This document shows, piece by piece, positions 352 through 11,000 of a stretch of 30,141 bases of DNA (position 1 is its first letter; each line of letters begins with the position of its first letter). Below the pieces are notes generated by a model. It made no database searches. It saw nothing but the letters and a program-made list of their open reading frames with translations, and was not told the DNA's origin. The stretch lies in the IMG/VR virus record IMGVR_UViG_3300042402_005289, positions 1 through 30,141 of that record. The stretch is one strand, 5' to 3'. A program made the translations under genes and the position numbers. This stretch comes from a virus.

Positions 352-645
352 TTACTTCCCTTTCTTCTCGCCTGTGATCATTGATGTCGCGCGGGAGCCA
401 ATAACGTTTGCTAATGATGCAGTTAAAAGAACAAAAGCTGTTCCTTTAATCGAATCCCAATATTCAATATCGAACGATCGCATACGTCCGGTAAACTGGT
501 TTTCTGAATAAAGAGCAAAAATATCAACTGCAGCCCAGAATATGGATCCGAACAAAAATGACATAACCGCCAATAGGGCAGCGGCCTTGGTGGATATTTT
601 GATTAATCCTAAAGCTCCAGCTTCTGATAAGTCTAATTTTTTCAT
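352..645 (-). CDS. Small protein with two predicted membrane segments
   Basis: 97 residues, not recognised. Two hydrophobic stretches (about residues 21-43 and 67-84) suggest an inner-membrane hairpin with a short Lys-rich C-terminus. The ATG overlaps the upstream stop by one base (TAATG) and has an AAAGGA site, so translation is coupled to the preceding gene. The next gene begins 2 nt after its stop and is also membrane-anchored; the two could work together (inference). Confidence 0.75.
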   Translation of the reverse strand: MKKLDLSEAGALGLIKISTKAAALLAVMSFLFGSIFWAAVDIFALYSENQFTGRMRSFDIEYWDSIKGTAFVLLTASLANVIGSRATSMITGEKKGK

Positions 646-1355
646 TATTTGATTCCTTTTCTAAAGTCCGAACTAAGTTTAAGCATGAACCAGTCTCGTT
701 CCCACATCATGCCTATTGCACAGTATCCTATAATGTCCATGTAAGTATCAGCGATCGGTTCATTTCTGGCCTCGCCGGAAGAGTTAATCGAGAGATTCTT
801 CAAGCGCGCTATTTTGTCATGAACCCTGACTAGTAGACCCTGTCTTCCGAATCGAGCAATGTTGTCGTGCCCATAGTCGTGCTGTTTTTCGGCGAGAGTC
901 TGGGCAATTGATGCGCAGGACATGAAGACGCCTACGGCATGATCGGTTGAATTTTTTGTTTTTTTGTTGCCTGCAGCGGGAGCTTCTGGTTCCGCCGGAG
1001 GAAGTGAGTTAAAAATTCCACGATTTATACCAGCCGCAGCAGCAATCGATCCTAAAATTTTCCATTCTTCAACCCAATAAGCGTTATCTGAATCGAACCA
1101 GTTAAAAGAATTAATCATTCCTTCGAATTGATTATCGATCAATTTAATACATTCTGTAATTATGTTTAAACTATCTGGAGCTGCCTGGCCAGAGAATGGA
1201 ACTGGAAACAGATTTTTACTGTTTTTTTCAAATTGATCCAGGTGCCCGGCAATTTGGTTGCATTTTCCGAATATTTCCCACACGCACGCGTTAGCTGCAT
1301 CTTCCCAGAATAAATGAGTGCCTGGATCTTGGTCTTCTACCACCGTCAATGACAT
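645..1355 (-). CDS. DUF1599/Nmad1-like (nucleotide-modification-associated) protein
   Basis: 236 residues. The C-terminal third carries the pattern I associate with DUF1599 (nucleotide modification associated domain 1): K157..DYG at 160-162, a VRVHDKIARLKNL block at 176-188, and EPIADTYMDIIGY at 199-211. The family is an all-helical, MazG-like domain found in phages and thought to act on nucleotides or modified bases. The first ~145 residues, ending in a Pro/Ala-rich linker, are an extension I do not recognise. The start directly abuts the upstream stop (TAGATG) and its stop overlaps the next start. The first codons contain a C-box-like stretch (see 1340-1350). The family call is fairly confident, the substrate unknown. 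Confidence 0.75.
   Translation of the reverse strand: MSLTVVEDQDPGTHLFWEDAANACVWEIFGKCNQIAGHLDQFEKNSKNLFPVPFSGQAAPDSLNIITECIKLIDNQFEGMINSFNWFDSDNAYWVEEWKILGSIAAAAGINRGIFNSLPPAEPEAPAAGNKKTKNSTDHAVGVFMSCASIAQTLAEKQHDYGHDNIARFGRQGLLVRVHDKIARLKNLSINSSGEARNEPIADTYMDIIGYCAIGMMWERDWFMLKLSSDFRKGIK
1340..1350 (-). other. C-box-like sequence at a gene start
   Basis: The start region of the DUF1599-like gene reads TTGACGGTGGTAGAA on the minus strand, matching the C-box consensus TTGACGGTGGCGGAA at 13 of 15 bases. Here it is coding (LTVVE), unlike the intergenic copies, so it may be coincidence or a binding site near a start codon. Confidence 0.3.
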
Positions 1356-2453: not shown

Positions 2454-2467
2454 CGAACATATGTTCG
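2454..2467. promoter_or_regulatory. LexA (SOS) operator
   Basis: CGAACATATGTTCG is a perfect 14-bp palindrome and fits the Gram-positive/actinobacterial LexA consensus CGAAC-N4-GTTCG. It lies 15 bp before the start codon of the 2483 gene, just upstream of a TAACAT -10 (2470-2475), so LexA bound here would block that promoter. Confidence 0.82.
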
Positions 2468-2469
2468 AT

Positions 2470-2475
2470 TAACAT
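2470..2475 (+). promoter_or_regulatory. -10 box for the LexA-controlled gene
   Basis: TAACAT fits TANNNT and ends 7 nt before the ATG at 2483, predicting a leaderless or nearly leaderless mRNA. No ribosome site precedes the ATG and no good -35 is visible. Confidence 0.5.
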
Positions 2476-2482
2476 TTACAGC

Positions 2483-2875
2483 ATGGACAACAACACAAAA
2501 TTTAATACTTATCTAGGGGCACTTGGCGAATACATTTCGCGAGAAGGAAATTCAAAAGTTCCAGCAATTCATATTGAAAAATATAAAGAAAATGAAATAT
2601 CTCTTGGTGCATGGGTTGGATATATTCGACAGAGATATCGTAAAAATCTTCTTCCTCTGGATCGAGTAAAAAAAATGGAAGAAATTAATCATTGGCAGTG
2701 GGGCCCTTTCCAGCCAGGACCAGCTACAGACGATGAAAGAAATATTCAGATTTATTCAATGAGATCTAGCGGAGCTTCACTTCGAGAGATCGCAGATGAG
2801 TTTGATCTTTCGCGTCAGCGTGTTCATCAGATAATCAAACGTTCTCAAGCAGGCTCTTCCACCACCGTCAATTAG
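2483..2875 (+). CDS. Helicase-associated-domain protein with sigma-4-like HTH
   Basis: 130 residues. Residues ~7-75 match the helicase-associated (HA) domain pattern: VP..H...Y.. then LGAWVGYIRQRYRKNLL and a Trp-rich end (HWQW). Residues 99-120 (SLREIADEFDLSRQRVHQII) form a helix-turn-helix like sigma region 4.2. A DNA-binding role is likely; HA domains are common in actinobacterial and phage proteins. It sits behind a LexA box, so it is probably induced by DNA damage. The last codons (..SSTTVN, stop) lie inside a C-box copy, meaning that repeat overlaps the gene end. Confidence 0.82.
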   Translation: MDNNTKFNTYLGALGEYISREGNSKVPAIHIEKYKENEISLGAWVGYIRQRYRKNLLPLDRVKKMEEINHWQWGPFQPGPATDDERNIQIYSMRSSGASLREIADEFDLSRQRVHQIIKRSQAGSSTTVN

Positions 2876-3024
2876 TTCCCACGAGAAACAGTTTGTTGTT
2901 ATTGAATTAATAAGGCAGGGCGACGCGATGGTAACAAGTAGAAAATTTCCGAACGAATGGTCATCAAAAGACAACTTCGGCAGCTCCAGGAAAGAGCCCC
3001 GGGCTGTTAAACCCAGCGGGGCTC
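2857..3024. repeat. Composite element copy 0: C-box and D hairpin, no clear B-box
   Basis: C-box TTCCACCACCGTCAA at 2857-2871 and a D hairpin at 2994-3024 (GAGCCCCGGGCTG / CAGCGGGGCTC). No CATTATC-type B-box is seen between them, which makes this the most divergent copy. The C-box overlaps the end of the HA/HTH gene and the D hairpin lies inside the 2928 reading frame. Confidence 0.65.
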
Positions 3025-3242
3025 CAAACAGCATGGCGGCAGGAATCATCGGGTTCGTTCTACTTGTGGTTGTTGTGAGCTTGCTCGGCTCGGCTCTTGC
3101 GCGTGTACTCCACACGGCAGGCGTAGTCCAGTGGCAGTTGTCGGTGCTGGAAGTCTTTGCCATATCTTCTATTTCTGTGACGCTTCGCGCTATTGATAGA
3201 GCAGTTTTCGGAGCGATAGATCGGTTCGGTGGCAACAAGTAG
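2928..3242 (+). CDS. Probable small membrane protein
   Basis: 104 residues from the ATG at 2928, which follows an AGGG site; not recognised. Hydrophobic segments at about 36-59 (AAGIIGFVLLVVVVSLLGSA) and 70-87 suggest two membrane spans. Residues ~23-33 are encoded by a D hairpin, so the first 35 residues may not be native and the ATG at 3033 (MAAGIIGF) is an alternative start without a ribosome site. Its 3' half overlaps an opposite-strand frame (3060-3308); at most one of these overlapping segments is likely to be fully functional. I favour this strand because its composition is more protein-like. Confidence 0.5.
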   Translation: MVTSRKFPNEWSSKDNFGSSRKEPRAVKPSGAPNSMAAGIIGFVLLVVVVSLLGSALARVLHTAGVVQWQLSVLEVFAISSISVTLRAIDRAVFGAIDRFGGNK

Positions 3243-3723: not shown

Positions 3724-5259
3724 TTACGGCATAGGTAAATTACCCATGTGCGCTTTCCATGTTTGCTTAAACTGATAAGGATAAACAGTTTGGGCTTTGC
3801 CACCATTCGCCAACTTTGACAACTGGATTAACGCTTCCTCAATGTGAGGCACGATAATATAGTTATGCTTATTGGCGTATGTTAGACACTGCATGGAAAG
3901 TAGTTCATGGAAGCCATCGTTTTTTCCGCAAACTCCACCATCCGTGATCCACACCAACGGAGAAGTTTTGTGTTTTTGATTTTCTACTCCCCAAACTATT
4001 GCTGGGTAGTCAACTCCATTGCCATAGCCATAGTCAATGCCTGATAGTGATTCCACCATTTTGCCTTTGTCAGCAACAACCCATAAGTTAGAACCCTTGT
4101 CATTGTTCCTGTCGCTGTAAATAGCAACAGTACAGCCAGGTGCGTAACTGATAATTTTTTCTATCTGTTCTTCAGTGAATGACATGGAGCCACTTCCATC
4201 AATGATTACCATGCCACCGCTGCCCTTTATCTTTTTGTCAAAAACCCTCATTGCTGGGTCTGTGAGTAGTCGGTGCATACGACGGGGGCGACGACCCATA
4301 TTTGTAGCAATGCGCTTTTTACCGATAGTGCCTTTCAGCATTTTTGGTAATGGCACACGCTCTACTCGTAACTCTGCCCACGATGGGACTCCACCAGCAC
4401 TAACTGGAGAAATGTTACCGAGAGGGTTTCCGTCTTTCTTGGCTTCCGTGTAGTCACCCTTATTCCCAATGCCTGACTTCTTCTCTACATCATCCTTTGG
4501 TAACGAGCCACTGCTAGGAACACCCTTTGGGGCTGGTGGTGGTGGGGGTGGTGGTGGGAAAGAAGCAATCCTGTCAACCCATTCCGCAATTCGTTCGGTC
4601 TGAGCAAAACCAACAGGCTCTAATCCACCATGTTCACGAGTATCGCCAAGACTCGTGTATTTGCTGGATTTTTTCATTTCCTTTAATGCTTTCTTGCTTA
4701 TCGCCAGTAGAGAATCTCCCCAATGACGATTATGCCTGCGAACACCATTAAGGAAAGGCTTTAGCCCATTCGTGTTAGTCGCTGCGATAGTCATGGCAAC
4801 TGCTCCTGCCCAATCTCCCGTCTTGGAAAGACGTTCTCCTGTTGCTAGTTCAGAGCCATTGATTAGTGATTCCTTGACTGGAATGCCGACAGATTCACAT
4901 AGGAAGTTCACACGAAGTTCCTCAACAACTCTCATGGCCTGCTCTGAAGCAATGCCACGAGAAATGAAGTTACTAAACTGCTCAGGGGTCGGTGAGATTT
5001 TGCTGTGCATTAGTTCGTGAGCCCGAACAGCACGACTGTAGTCGTCATCAGCAAATGGAGCGTACATAACTCTGTTGCCAATATCTGTTCTTGGTTCTCC
5101 CGAAATAGCACGACAATCCTCAACTTGCCAAACTTCGTGAGCAATATCTTTTCTGCCAATTATCGTAGGTTCGGCTTTCGCCGTTCCCACACTCACGGAA
5201 TCGCTGGAGTGTGGGAACGGTTTGCCACCGCTACTTTTTGTTGAGTTAAGGGTTGTCAT
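3724..5259 (-). CDS. HExxH metalloprotein with VWA/MIDAS domain (partner of an AAA ATPase)
   Basis: 511 residues. An N-terminal HELMH (81-85) followed by an EELRVN block (114-119) looks like a zinc metallopeptidase core. A proline run (235-242) and Lys/Gly-rich linker lead to a C-terminal von Willebrand A domain with the MIDAS motif DGSGS (354-358) and a WITDGG motif (438-443). It resembles the CobT-like or peptidase partner encoded next to CobS/MoxR-type AAA proteins in phages; such pairs remodel or insert metal into target complexes. The start overlaps the ATPase stop (TGATG) with GGAG 7 nt upstream, so the two are co-translated. The target is unknown; cobalamin synthesis is unlikely without other genes. 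Confidence 0.85.
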   Translation of the reverse strand: MTTLNSTKSSGGKPFPHSSDSVSVGTAKAEPTIIGRKDIAHEVWQVEDCRAISGEPRTDIGNRVMYAPFADDDYSRAVRAHELMHSKISPTPEQFSNFISRGIASEQAMRVVEELRVNFLCESVGIPVKESLINGSELATGERLSKTGDWAGAVAMTIAATNTNGLKPFLNGVRRHNRHWGDSLLAISKKALKEMKKSSKYTSLGDTREHGGLEPVGFAQTERIAEWVDRIASFPPPPPPPPAPKGVPSSGSLPKDDVEKKSGIGNKGDYTEAKKDGNPLGNISPVSAGGVPSWAELRVERVPLPKMLKGTIGKKRIATNMGRRPRRMHRLLTDPAMRVFDKKIKGSGGMVIIDGSGSMSFTEEQIEKIISYAPGCTVAIYSDRNNDKGSNLWVVADKGKMVESLSGIDYGYGNGVDYPAIVWGVENQKHKTSPLVWITDGGVCGKNDGFHELLSMQCLTYANKHNYIIVPHIEEALIQLSKLANGGKAQTVYPYQFKQTWKAHMGNLPMP

Positions 5260-5984
5260 CAGGAAACTCCGTCCACTGAAAATGCGTCAAGGATTTGCTT
5301 TGCACGACGACCGAATGTGAGTTCACACGCACGTTCCATGCCGACAGATTTGCGCAATTTGTCGAGAGCAAGAAATGCTCGCAAAGAGATTCTGTCGTCG
5401 CCAGCGTCAGCCATGCGAACTGCGTATTTACGCAAGTCAGACGAAAGACGAAGTAGAGCAGTTGGGTGCGGAGCGTCAATACGGATACGAATTGGGAAAC
5501 GGTCTGCCAACGCTGTTGGGAGTTCTCCCATATTCTCAATGTTCGTTGTCATGATCGCTGAGAATCCTTCAGACGGTTTGAGTACATCGCCAGTTTCGGG
5601 ATGCTCAAATGATGCTGATTCAGGTGAGTCAAGCATGGCGAGAAGCGTTGCGAAAACGTCGCCACCTGCCTTGTCAATTTCGTCAACGATCAAGCGACCG
5701 CCATTAACGCCGTTGCCTTTCCATGCTTTGAGAGCAGAACCATCAAGCCACTGGAAGCCACCATGCTTAGAAGGCATGAATCCACCAGTAACGTCCATGT
5801 TCGTCATGTCCTCTGTGCAAACAAGACGAAATGCTCCTGCTTCTACATTGCCCATGCTCATTCCTGCATAAGTCTTTCCGATACCGCTTGGTCCGAAAAG
5901 AATTATTCTGTCAATTCCTGCCTCTAGGCATTCGTTAAATGCTTTCCAGCATTCGGGTAGTGTGTTGTCTGTGGTTGTAACCAT
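5259..5984 (-). CDS. MoxR/CobS-like AAA+ ATPase
   Basis: 241 residues. Walker A GPSGIGKT (31-38), Walker B RLIVDEID (97-104), sensor-1 TTN (146-148) and an arginine-finger-type ALADRF (158-163) define a compact AAA+ module of the MoxR/dynein-related kind. It is short, essentially a bare ATPase domain, and is followed by the overlapping HExxH/VWA gene, the usual pairing for a ring ATPase and its MIDAS-domain adaptor. GAGGAG precedes the ATG; a TTAACA-17-TAATCT promoter lies about 40 nt upstream. Confidence 0.88.
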   Translation of the reverse strand: MVTTTDNTLPECWKAFNECLEAGIDRIILFGPSGIGKTYAGMSMGNVEAGAFRLVCTEDMTNMDVTGGFMPSKHGGFQWLDGSALKAWKGNGVNGGRLIVDEIDKAGGDVFATLLAMLDSPESASFEHPETGDVLKPSEGFSAIMTTNIENMGELPTALADRFPIRIRIDAPHPTALLRLSSDLRKYAVRMADAGDDRISLRAFLALDKLRKSVGMERACELTFGRRAKQILDAFSVDGVS

Positions 5985-6084: not shown

Positions 6085-6370
6085 CATCATCCTTTAGTAA
6101 CGGCGACCCTTTCCCCCACCGTCAATCTCTACCCGTGAGGAACAGTGAGAGAGAACCACATAATTTTTTTGCAAATTATTTTTCTTACATTATCCCAGCA
6201 TGCCCCCGACAGAGACGAATTGATGTTGCTTGCGTGTGCGGGTTGGAGCCCCGGGCTCTGCACGCGTAGCGGGGCTTACACTGAGCTCGATTTATGGATG
6301 TTGCATTATCCTTTAGTAAGCGAATTTACATTATCCTTTAGTAACAAGACGGCCGTTGTAAAGGATAATG
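6085..6370. repeat. Composite element copy 1 in a 400-nt gene-free gap
   Basis: The gap 5985-6383 has no convincing gene. It holds an A-box variant CATCATCCTTTAGT (6085-6098), C-box (6111-6125), B-box (6188-6209), D hairpin (6247-6277), two A-boxes (6304-6317, 6329-6342) and an inverted partner TAAAGGATAATG (6359-6370). The last two could pair as a 13-bp stem with a loop containing AAGACGGCCGTT. Confidence 0.8.
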
Positions 6371-10391: not shown

Positions 10392-11000
10392 TTATTTCAT
10401 CACTTCAGCGAGGTGGGTCTCTATGAAGTCGGTTGTCCACTCGCCCCAATGCTCGTCTCGGCTTCCGTATATTCCTGCGTCAATACTGCGAGCAACATCG
10501 GTTCTAATCTCAAAGACGGTAGGCACGTTTCGCAAAACCGTTGCAACGTCTTTGACGGTCAGTGCGTTGGCTTTCTGATACAAGACCACGCAAGCGTCGT
10601 AGAGGTGATCGGGTGGGATCATTGGGAACGCTATTGACGCTGCCCTAATGCTCAGGTACTCGTTGCGAACTACTTGGACACGTAGGTCGGGTAACCCAAA
10701 TCCATATTGACGGGTCATTTCCATTCCAGCGTCAATGACTACGAAATCGTAATCGCCAATGCTTAACATACCGTTTAATTCATTAGGCGTTACGCCCTTG
10801 ACGGTGATGCCGTAATGTCCTTCATTCTCTCGGAACGTATTTACGGTTAGACCGAGCAACGCTGTGCAATCGTCGTTCTTTGATGGGTCAAGTAAGAGAA
10901 CTCGCTCAGGAGATTTCTTACCCAATGCCAATGCAATGGAACAGGCGACGGTCGTTGTCCCGACTCCACCCTTTTGCGCTGTTACTTCTATGACCTTCAT
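10392..11000 (-). CDS. ParA/MinD-superfamily ATPase with altered P-loop
   Basis: 202 residues. The N-terminus MKVIEVTAQKGGVGTTTVAC has the deviant Walker A of ParA proteins, keeping the signature lysine K10 but with Thr in place of the usual P-loop lysine (KGGVGTTT rather than KGGVGKT), a variation seen in some ParA-like proteins such as TadZ/CpaE types. LLLDPS (35-40) and DFVVIDAG (85-92) supply the switch and Walker B regions. No ParB gene or parS array is evident, so it is an orphan; partition, positioning or regulation are possible. AAAGGGG precedes the start; a class-P promoter is 43 nt upstream. Confidence 0.83.
   Translation of the reverse strand: MKVIEVTAQKGGVGTTTVACSIALALGKKSPERVLLLDPSKNDDCTALLGLTVNTFRENEGHYGITVKGVTPNELNGMLSIGDYDFVVIDAGMEMTRQYGFGLPDLRVQVVRNEYLSIRAASIAFPMIPPDHLYDACVVLYQKANALTVKDVATVLRNVPTVFEIRTDVARSIDAGIYGSRDEHWGEWTTDFIETHLAEVMK

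Follow-up and report, generated by a model that had tools for sequence, protein, structure and literature searches.

A Conserved SOS-Box-Like Palindrome in the Promoter of a Leaderless HA/HTH Gene Points to Host LexA Control in a Family of Putative Actinophages

Introduction

Phage genes under LexA control have been described mostly in temperate phages. Examples include the LexA-controlled antirepressors of coliphage 186 (Tum), N15, and SPC32H (PMC9437464, PMC4551915). In GIL01 of Bacillus and CTXphi of Vibrio, host LexA acts in lysogenic promoters (PMC6182141, PMC4551915, PMC9437464). SPbeta carries the SOS-box genes yolC, yolD, and yorB, and LexA binding in vitro has been found for some (PMC8270828). 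Other host regulators are read in a comparable way, with CtrA sites in phages of Alphaproteobacteria ("lytic deferment") and Spo0A sites in phi29 (PMC9437464).

Here, we examine a viral record from IMG/VR, analyzed over its full 30,141 bases (the window), in which an SOS-box-like palindrome lies in the promoter of a small gene, P0001. Phage genes under LexA are known; what is new here is the gene family, its leaderless promoter, and its occurrence in large, apparently non-integrating actinophages. We did not find an SOS-boxed HA/HTH actinophage gene described in the literature searched, mostly without subscription papers, and that search returned no paper linking helicase-associated (HA) domains with phages of actinobacteria.

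Results

The features of the window discussed below are as follows.

645-1355, minus strand: DUF1599 (nucleotide-modification-associated) gene
2454-2467, no strand: putative LexA/SOS-box palindrome CGAACATATGTTCG, in the promoter spacer directly upstream of the -10 element
2470-2475, plus strand: -10 element TAACAT (TANNNT), its position kept in 53 of 53 distinct orthologs
2483-2875, plus strand: leaderless P0001 gene, encoding a 130-aa protein with an HA domain and a sigma-region-4-like HTH (Pfam, AlphaFold model)
2928-3242, plus strand: possible second gene of the unit, 52 nt downstream of P0001, for a 104-aa hypothetical protein that has a hydrophobic stretch
3724-5984, minus strand: conserved pair of a 511-aa phrog_33218 protein and an AAA_5 ATPase
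10392-11000, minus strand: ParA-like 202-aa protein (profile match)

The pattern CGAAC-N4-GTTCG has a single exact match in the window, the perfect palindrome CGAACATATGTTCG; by chance, 0.0175 such matches would be expected, as simulated for the window with a first-order Markov model. Only 2 nt separate the palindrome from TAACAT, which places the box within the core promoter of the HA/HTH gene. TAACAT in turn ends 7 nt before the ATG, and there is no Shine-Dalgarno sequence. Relatives of P0001 were collected from 67 IMG/VR loci, with more from an alignment-based scan and two orthologs in MAG contigs from a GTDB scan; the set used for promoter counts comprises 53 distinct proteins from IMG/VR and GTDB. 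In every one of these, a TANNNT element ends 6-8 nt before the ATG, compared to approximately 12% in shuffled sequence, and a Shine-Dalgarno-like tetramer is absent from all but one, which indicates that the leaderless promoter is a trait of the whole ortholog family. The original prediction, a reading of the window's letters, had placed a perfect CGAAC-N4-GTTCG at the promoter of a leaderless gene. The palindrome is indeed exact and adjoins the -10 element, and the leaderless start is well supported.

P0001 matches the HA family PF03457 over residues 5-69 (6.5e-12; 46 bits against a Pfam cut-off of 28.4) and Sigma70_r4 (PF04545) over residues 97-120 (5e-6, also above the Pfam cut-off), in agreement with the two-part architecture first proposed. 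A profile search for sigma factor region 2 in P0001 found it absent, and the region-4 HTH alone matched; we rejected the assignment of P0001 as a sigma-70 factor, as it has region 4 without region 2. The AlphaFold model (pLDDT 85, pTM 0.57) predicts a DNA-binding fold, with helices at residues 3-21, 41-53, and 59-66 in the HA part, a three-helix HTH (84-95, 100-107, and 111-123), and a low-confidence linker between the two. Foldseek searches of the PDB with this model gave nothing below 0.001, returning generic HTH proteins and resolvases only, and a PDB profile search gave one match, to a designed repeat protein, within the HTH.

P0001 is present in all 23 relatives compared, with conserved neighbors. 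Its gene lies on the plus strand inside a conserved minus-strand block and therefore forms its own transcription unit. On one flank are the DUF1599 gene, which is syntenic with P0001 in 20 of the 23 relatives compared, and a hypothetical gene; on the other are the 511-aa protein and the AAA_5 ATPase, possibly a MoxR/VWA-like pair, in which the VWA part is a guess. The 104-aa protein has tblastn relatives in the same position at 7 of 23 loci compared and no match in Pfam or NCBIfam. We infer that it is co-transcribed with P0001, such that the unit would include this small downstream protein in some relatives. Searches of INPHARED phages with 25 kb of the window (megablast) and with P0001 (tblastn) gave no match, and the locus therefore has no characterized relative there.

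The original prediction had looked to related loci for the same palindrome, and here the outcome divides by clade. All 29 orthologs of the window's clade retain the ten half-site bases, as anticipated, while the palindrome is absent from 24 of 24 orthologs in other, more distant clades. On the tree, this pattern corresponds to a single gain (clade support 98/95) and zero losses among the 29 proteins. Across the 15 promoter clusters of the palindrome clade, the half-site bases are invariant, the central bases vary (ATAT, ATGT, ACTT, ACCT, ATAC, and others), and the 35 nt upstream average 32% identity. The spacing from box to ATG is 14-17 nt, and its shifts of 1-3 nt move with the start of the -10 stretch. 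Judged from these alignments, invariant half-sites amid drifted flanks, in step with the -10 element, mark a strongly selected protein-binding site. A clade at 54% identity retains the right half, TGTTCTA, at the place of the palindrome.

WhiB genes, a marker of actinophages (PMC10202952), occur in 30 of 35 related records and point to actinobacteria as hosts of this viral family. A GTDB MAG labeled Actinomycetota includes one related phage contig, and a second relative falls in a bin with a gammaproteobacterium; our host assignment draws on the WhiB genes and the one contig in the Actinomycetota MAG. That MAG contains three other exact palindromes, of which one lies 147 nt upstream of recA, one opens a DUF6504/dnaE2 cassette, and one is inside a gene. 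The names DUF6504 and dnaE2 are those that we take to fit the sequences in this MAG. No lexA gene was seen in the MAG itself. Within its family, 53 of 61 genomes encode the LexA DNA-binding domain (PF01726), and all 12 of the lexA genes inspected there have one or two upstream boxes at no more than one mismatch, often paired 58 bp apart (up to three boxes at two mismatches). Of 23 palindromes fetched from the same family, 16 lie upstream of recA or dnaE2/DUF6504; six genomes have the exact 14-mer of the window as their DUF6504/dnaE2-cassette box. Because the same palindrome precedes lexA, recA, and dnaE2 in the candidate host family, it is probably the SOS box of the presumed host lineage. It also resembles tCGAAC-N4-GNNCGa, the sequence bound by Streptomyces LexA, in which the outer t and a are given in lower case (PMC9380542).

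The match between phage and host boxes does not extend fully to the flanks. A matrix derived from host boxes gives the window box 16.5 and the runner-up site in the window 3.7, but phage boxes mostly score under host boxes (7-19 versus 18.6-32). Host boxes nearly all have T before CGAAC, whereas phage boxes have G in 13 of 15 clusters and A in the window. One side of the outer T...A pair (TCGAAC-N4-GTTCGA) is present in the window, as A at 2468, and the pair is absent from most of the clade. A T after the box is common to the corresponding promoter stretch of box-less relatives, CGTACTAAT, so that this flanking base may be promoter-derived. The missing outer T and the lower matrix scores suggest that the phage sites may be weaker, tuned LexA sites; a possible alternative is that the P0001 box is read by a binder other than LexA.

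Palindromes of this kind number 0-3 per searched record (up to approximately 170 kb). A perfect copy precedes whiB in one relative (G004). Leaderless whiB-like genes lie directly under CGAAC-N4-GTTCG in at least three unrelated IMG/VR contigs (L243, L254, and L260), found among the matches listed by an IMG/VR pattern scan; one of the three is Pfam-confirmed. In four relatives (G007-G010), a conserved 137-aa gene to which no function is assigned has a second SOS-like palindrome 112-113 nt upstream, at the following positions.

L068, 3116: second palindrome
L069, 3106: second palindrome
L075, 2165: second palindrome
L076, 1853: second palindrome

G036 and G037 have several full and partial CGAAC..GTTCG palindromes within approximately 700 nt (L073 2100-2870, and L087), and their P0001 ortholog is box-less. 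In G018, G024, and G026-G029, the second palindromes either fall within possible coding DNA or have no clear gene after them; we did not treat these as operators.

The window also contains repeats of other types. Between 3595 and 21352, mostly on the minus strand, there are at least 29 copies of TTACATTATCCTTTAGTA (minus strand TACTAAAGGATAATGTAA) and approximately 11 copies of a second type, ACATTATCTCAACACGCCCCCGA, with a GATAATG core common to both. They alternate with GC-rich, terminator-like inverted repeats (AAGCCCCG...CGGGGCTT), and the whole appears to be a series of short transcription units in which a promoter or operator recurs. The TACTAAAGGATAATGTAA/TTACATTATCCTTTAGTA repeat is absent from the relative G021; it is unlikely to be the target of P0001, since G021 has an ortholog without the motif. 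Another motif, TTGACGGTGGYGGAARR, is family-wide and occurs on the minus strand of the window at 2353-2372, 2852-2871, 6106-6125, and other positions. Its 183 distinct sites in the fetched loci often lie shortly before start codons and occur whether or not a clade has the SOS box; the motif resembles the start-associated or stoperator-like sequences of mycobacteriophages.

Finally, we considered the lifestyle of these viruses, whose related records reach 172 kb. A Peptidase_S24/LexA-type repressor (PF00717) was found in 0 of 16 relatives' records, a count that concerns the S24/LexA class only and records of up to approximately 170 kb that may be incomplete. Tyrosine integrase (PF00589) was found above the cut-off in 0 of 20 records, with one sub-threshold fragment containing stops, and the large serine recombinase domain (PF07508) in 0 of 16. 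With no repressor of this class and no credible integrase or serine recombinase in these records, a prophage awaiting induction is not evident, and neither is a classical prophage switch, the sense in which we took the "induction switch" of the original prediction. The ParA-like protein occurs in 4 of 16 records (the window and relatives G020, G024, and G102). It has a possible partition function, leaving an episomal state of these phages possible. The data would suit equally well a regulator gated by the SOS response in the course of infection, or an escape from a stalled or episomal state. The 154-kb record of G021 encodes a B12-dependent ribonucleotide reductase, a portal protein, a Toprim/AAA (primase/helicase-like) protein, and four tRNAs; a tRNA search of the window found none.

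Discussion

Control of the P0001 gene by host LexA, as originally proposed, is well supported in silico, because the box is invariant in its clade amid drifting flanks and the same palindrome precedes host lexA, recA, and dnaE2. We consider it probable that the palindrome is a host LexA operator from which an SOS-induced, leaderless HA/HTH regulator gates part of the phage program, and damage-gated expression of a phage regulator is our best reading of the locus. In an undamaged actinobacterial host, LexA seated in the promoter next to the -10 element would block RNA polymerase. Single-stranded DNA from UV, other damage, or the infection itself would activate RecA and lead to LexA self-cleavage, upon which the leaderless mRNA would be produced. 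The HA/HTH protein would then act as a small DNA-binding transcription regulator whose sigma-4-like HTH reads phage or host promoters, and the SOS response would thereby gate or time part of the phage program. The steps that we infer are LexA binding, induction by damage, the targets of the regulator, and the benefit to the phage.

If LexA binds as proposed, P0001 could still be a damage or repair accessory that aids phage replication or repair under stress and has no role as a regulator. Most SOS genes are repair genes, HA domains are familiar mainly from SF2 helicases, and the best viral Foldseek matches of P0001 are helicases bearing HA. However, P0001 consists of HA and HTH alone, with no catalytic domain, and its HTH resembles those of sigma region 4, Mor, and late activators; we regard the accessory role as rather doubtful, though deserving some weight. 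The identity of the binder could also differ. The palindrome might be the operator of a regulator that the phage encodes, in the simplest case the HA/HTH protein, and its likeness to an SOS box would then be convergence. This would agree with the many records that have the palindrome at the HA/HTH gene alone, the outer flanks that are unlike those of host SOS boxes, and the TGTTCTA half-site retained in the 54%-identity clade. We rank such autoregulation below LexA control and think it unlikely, because the recognition segment, SRQRVHQ, is essentially the same whether or not a clade has the palindrome. The box on other phage genes, including whiB in G004 and the leaderless whiB genes of other viral contigs, together with this unchanged segment, points to a trans-acting host factor, and the palindrome has the same sequence as the host boxes at lexA, recA, and dnaE2.

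Two further explanations dispense with regulation of the gene. Replicating phage DNA would multiply the number of sites, as expected of a decoy that titrates LexA, but 0-3 sites per record are few, and a decoy needs no promoter geometry, whereas the box at the P0001 gene is always beside the -10 element and in step with it. A decoy is thus very improbable. In favor of a chance palindrome without function, host genomes hold approximately 3 exact matches per 1-2 Mb genome, compared to 1-2 for a reversed control pattern. The low expectation in the window and the invariance of the box in 29 of 29 orthologs despite saturated flanks leave a chance origin a negligible prospect, and a functionless palindrome is already refuted by this conservation.

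If host LexA control of P0001 is correct, DNA damage, for example from sunlight UV, could steer infections without lysogeny, with small-genome actinobacteria as candidate hosts. The SOS box offers a clue to host range and a single 14-bp target for mutation or in vitro work. We tentatively raise a broader proposal, to which we lend limited credence, that large non-integrating freshwater actinophages take the SOS alarm as a cue for timing or postponing part of a program that is otherwise lytic. LexA would silence a leaderless sigma-4-like regulator until host DNA damage, as an analogue of CtrA/Spo0A "lytic deferment", and the leaderless whiB genes of other viral contigs would apparently have reached the same trick separately.

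Among described systems, the predicted arrangement shares with 186 Tum, N15, and SPC32H a phage gene held by host LexA through an SOS box and released by DNA damage. It differs from the Tum type in that no S24/LexA-type repressor and no credible integrase were found in these actinophage records, and in that the gene is leaderless and encodes a protein with HA and a sigma-4-like HTH that is no known antirepressor. Direct use of host LexA in phage regulation, predicted here, is also seen in GIL01 and CTXphi, but these are temperate phages with SOS boxes in their main promoters, whereas the box described here serves one isolated gene opposite to its conserved neighbors. SPbeta is likewise a large phage with scattered SOS boxes before small genes whose role is unassigned; in contrast to the actinophages, it is an integrating prophage of another host phylum, and its proteins are unrelated. 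As a protein, P0001 resembles Mor/C and sigma-region-4-like activators (PF08765, PF04545; PHROG 836/532) in its small size and C-terminal HTH, although the matches are confined to the HTH, and an N-terminal HA domain replaces the Mor dimerization domain. The phages with CtrA and Spo0A sites offer a parallel for the proposed timing of infection through a host master regulator, apart from classical lysogeny, with LexA and the SOS response here in place of CtrA or Spo0A and, most likely, an actinobacterium as the host.
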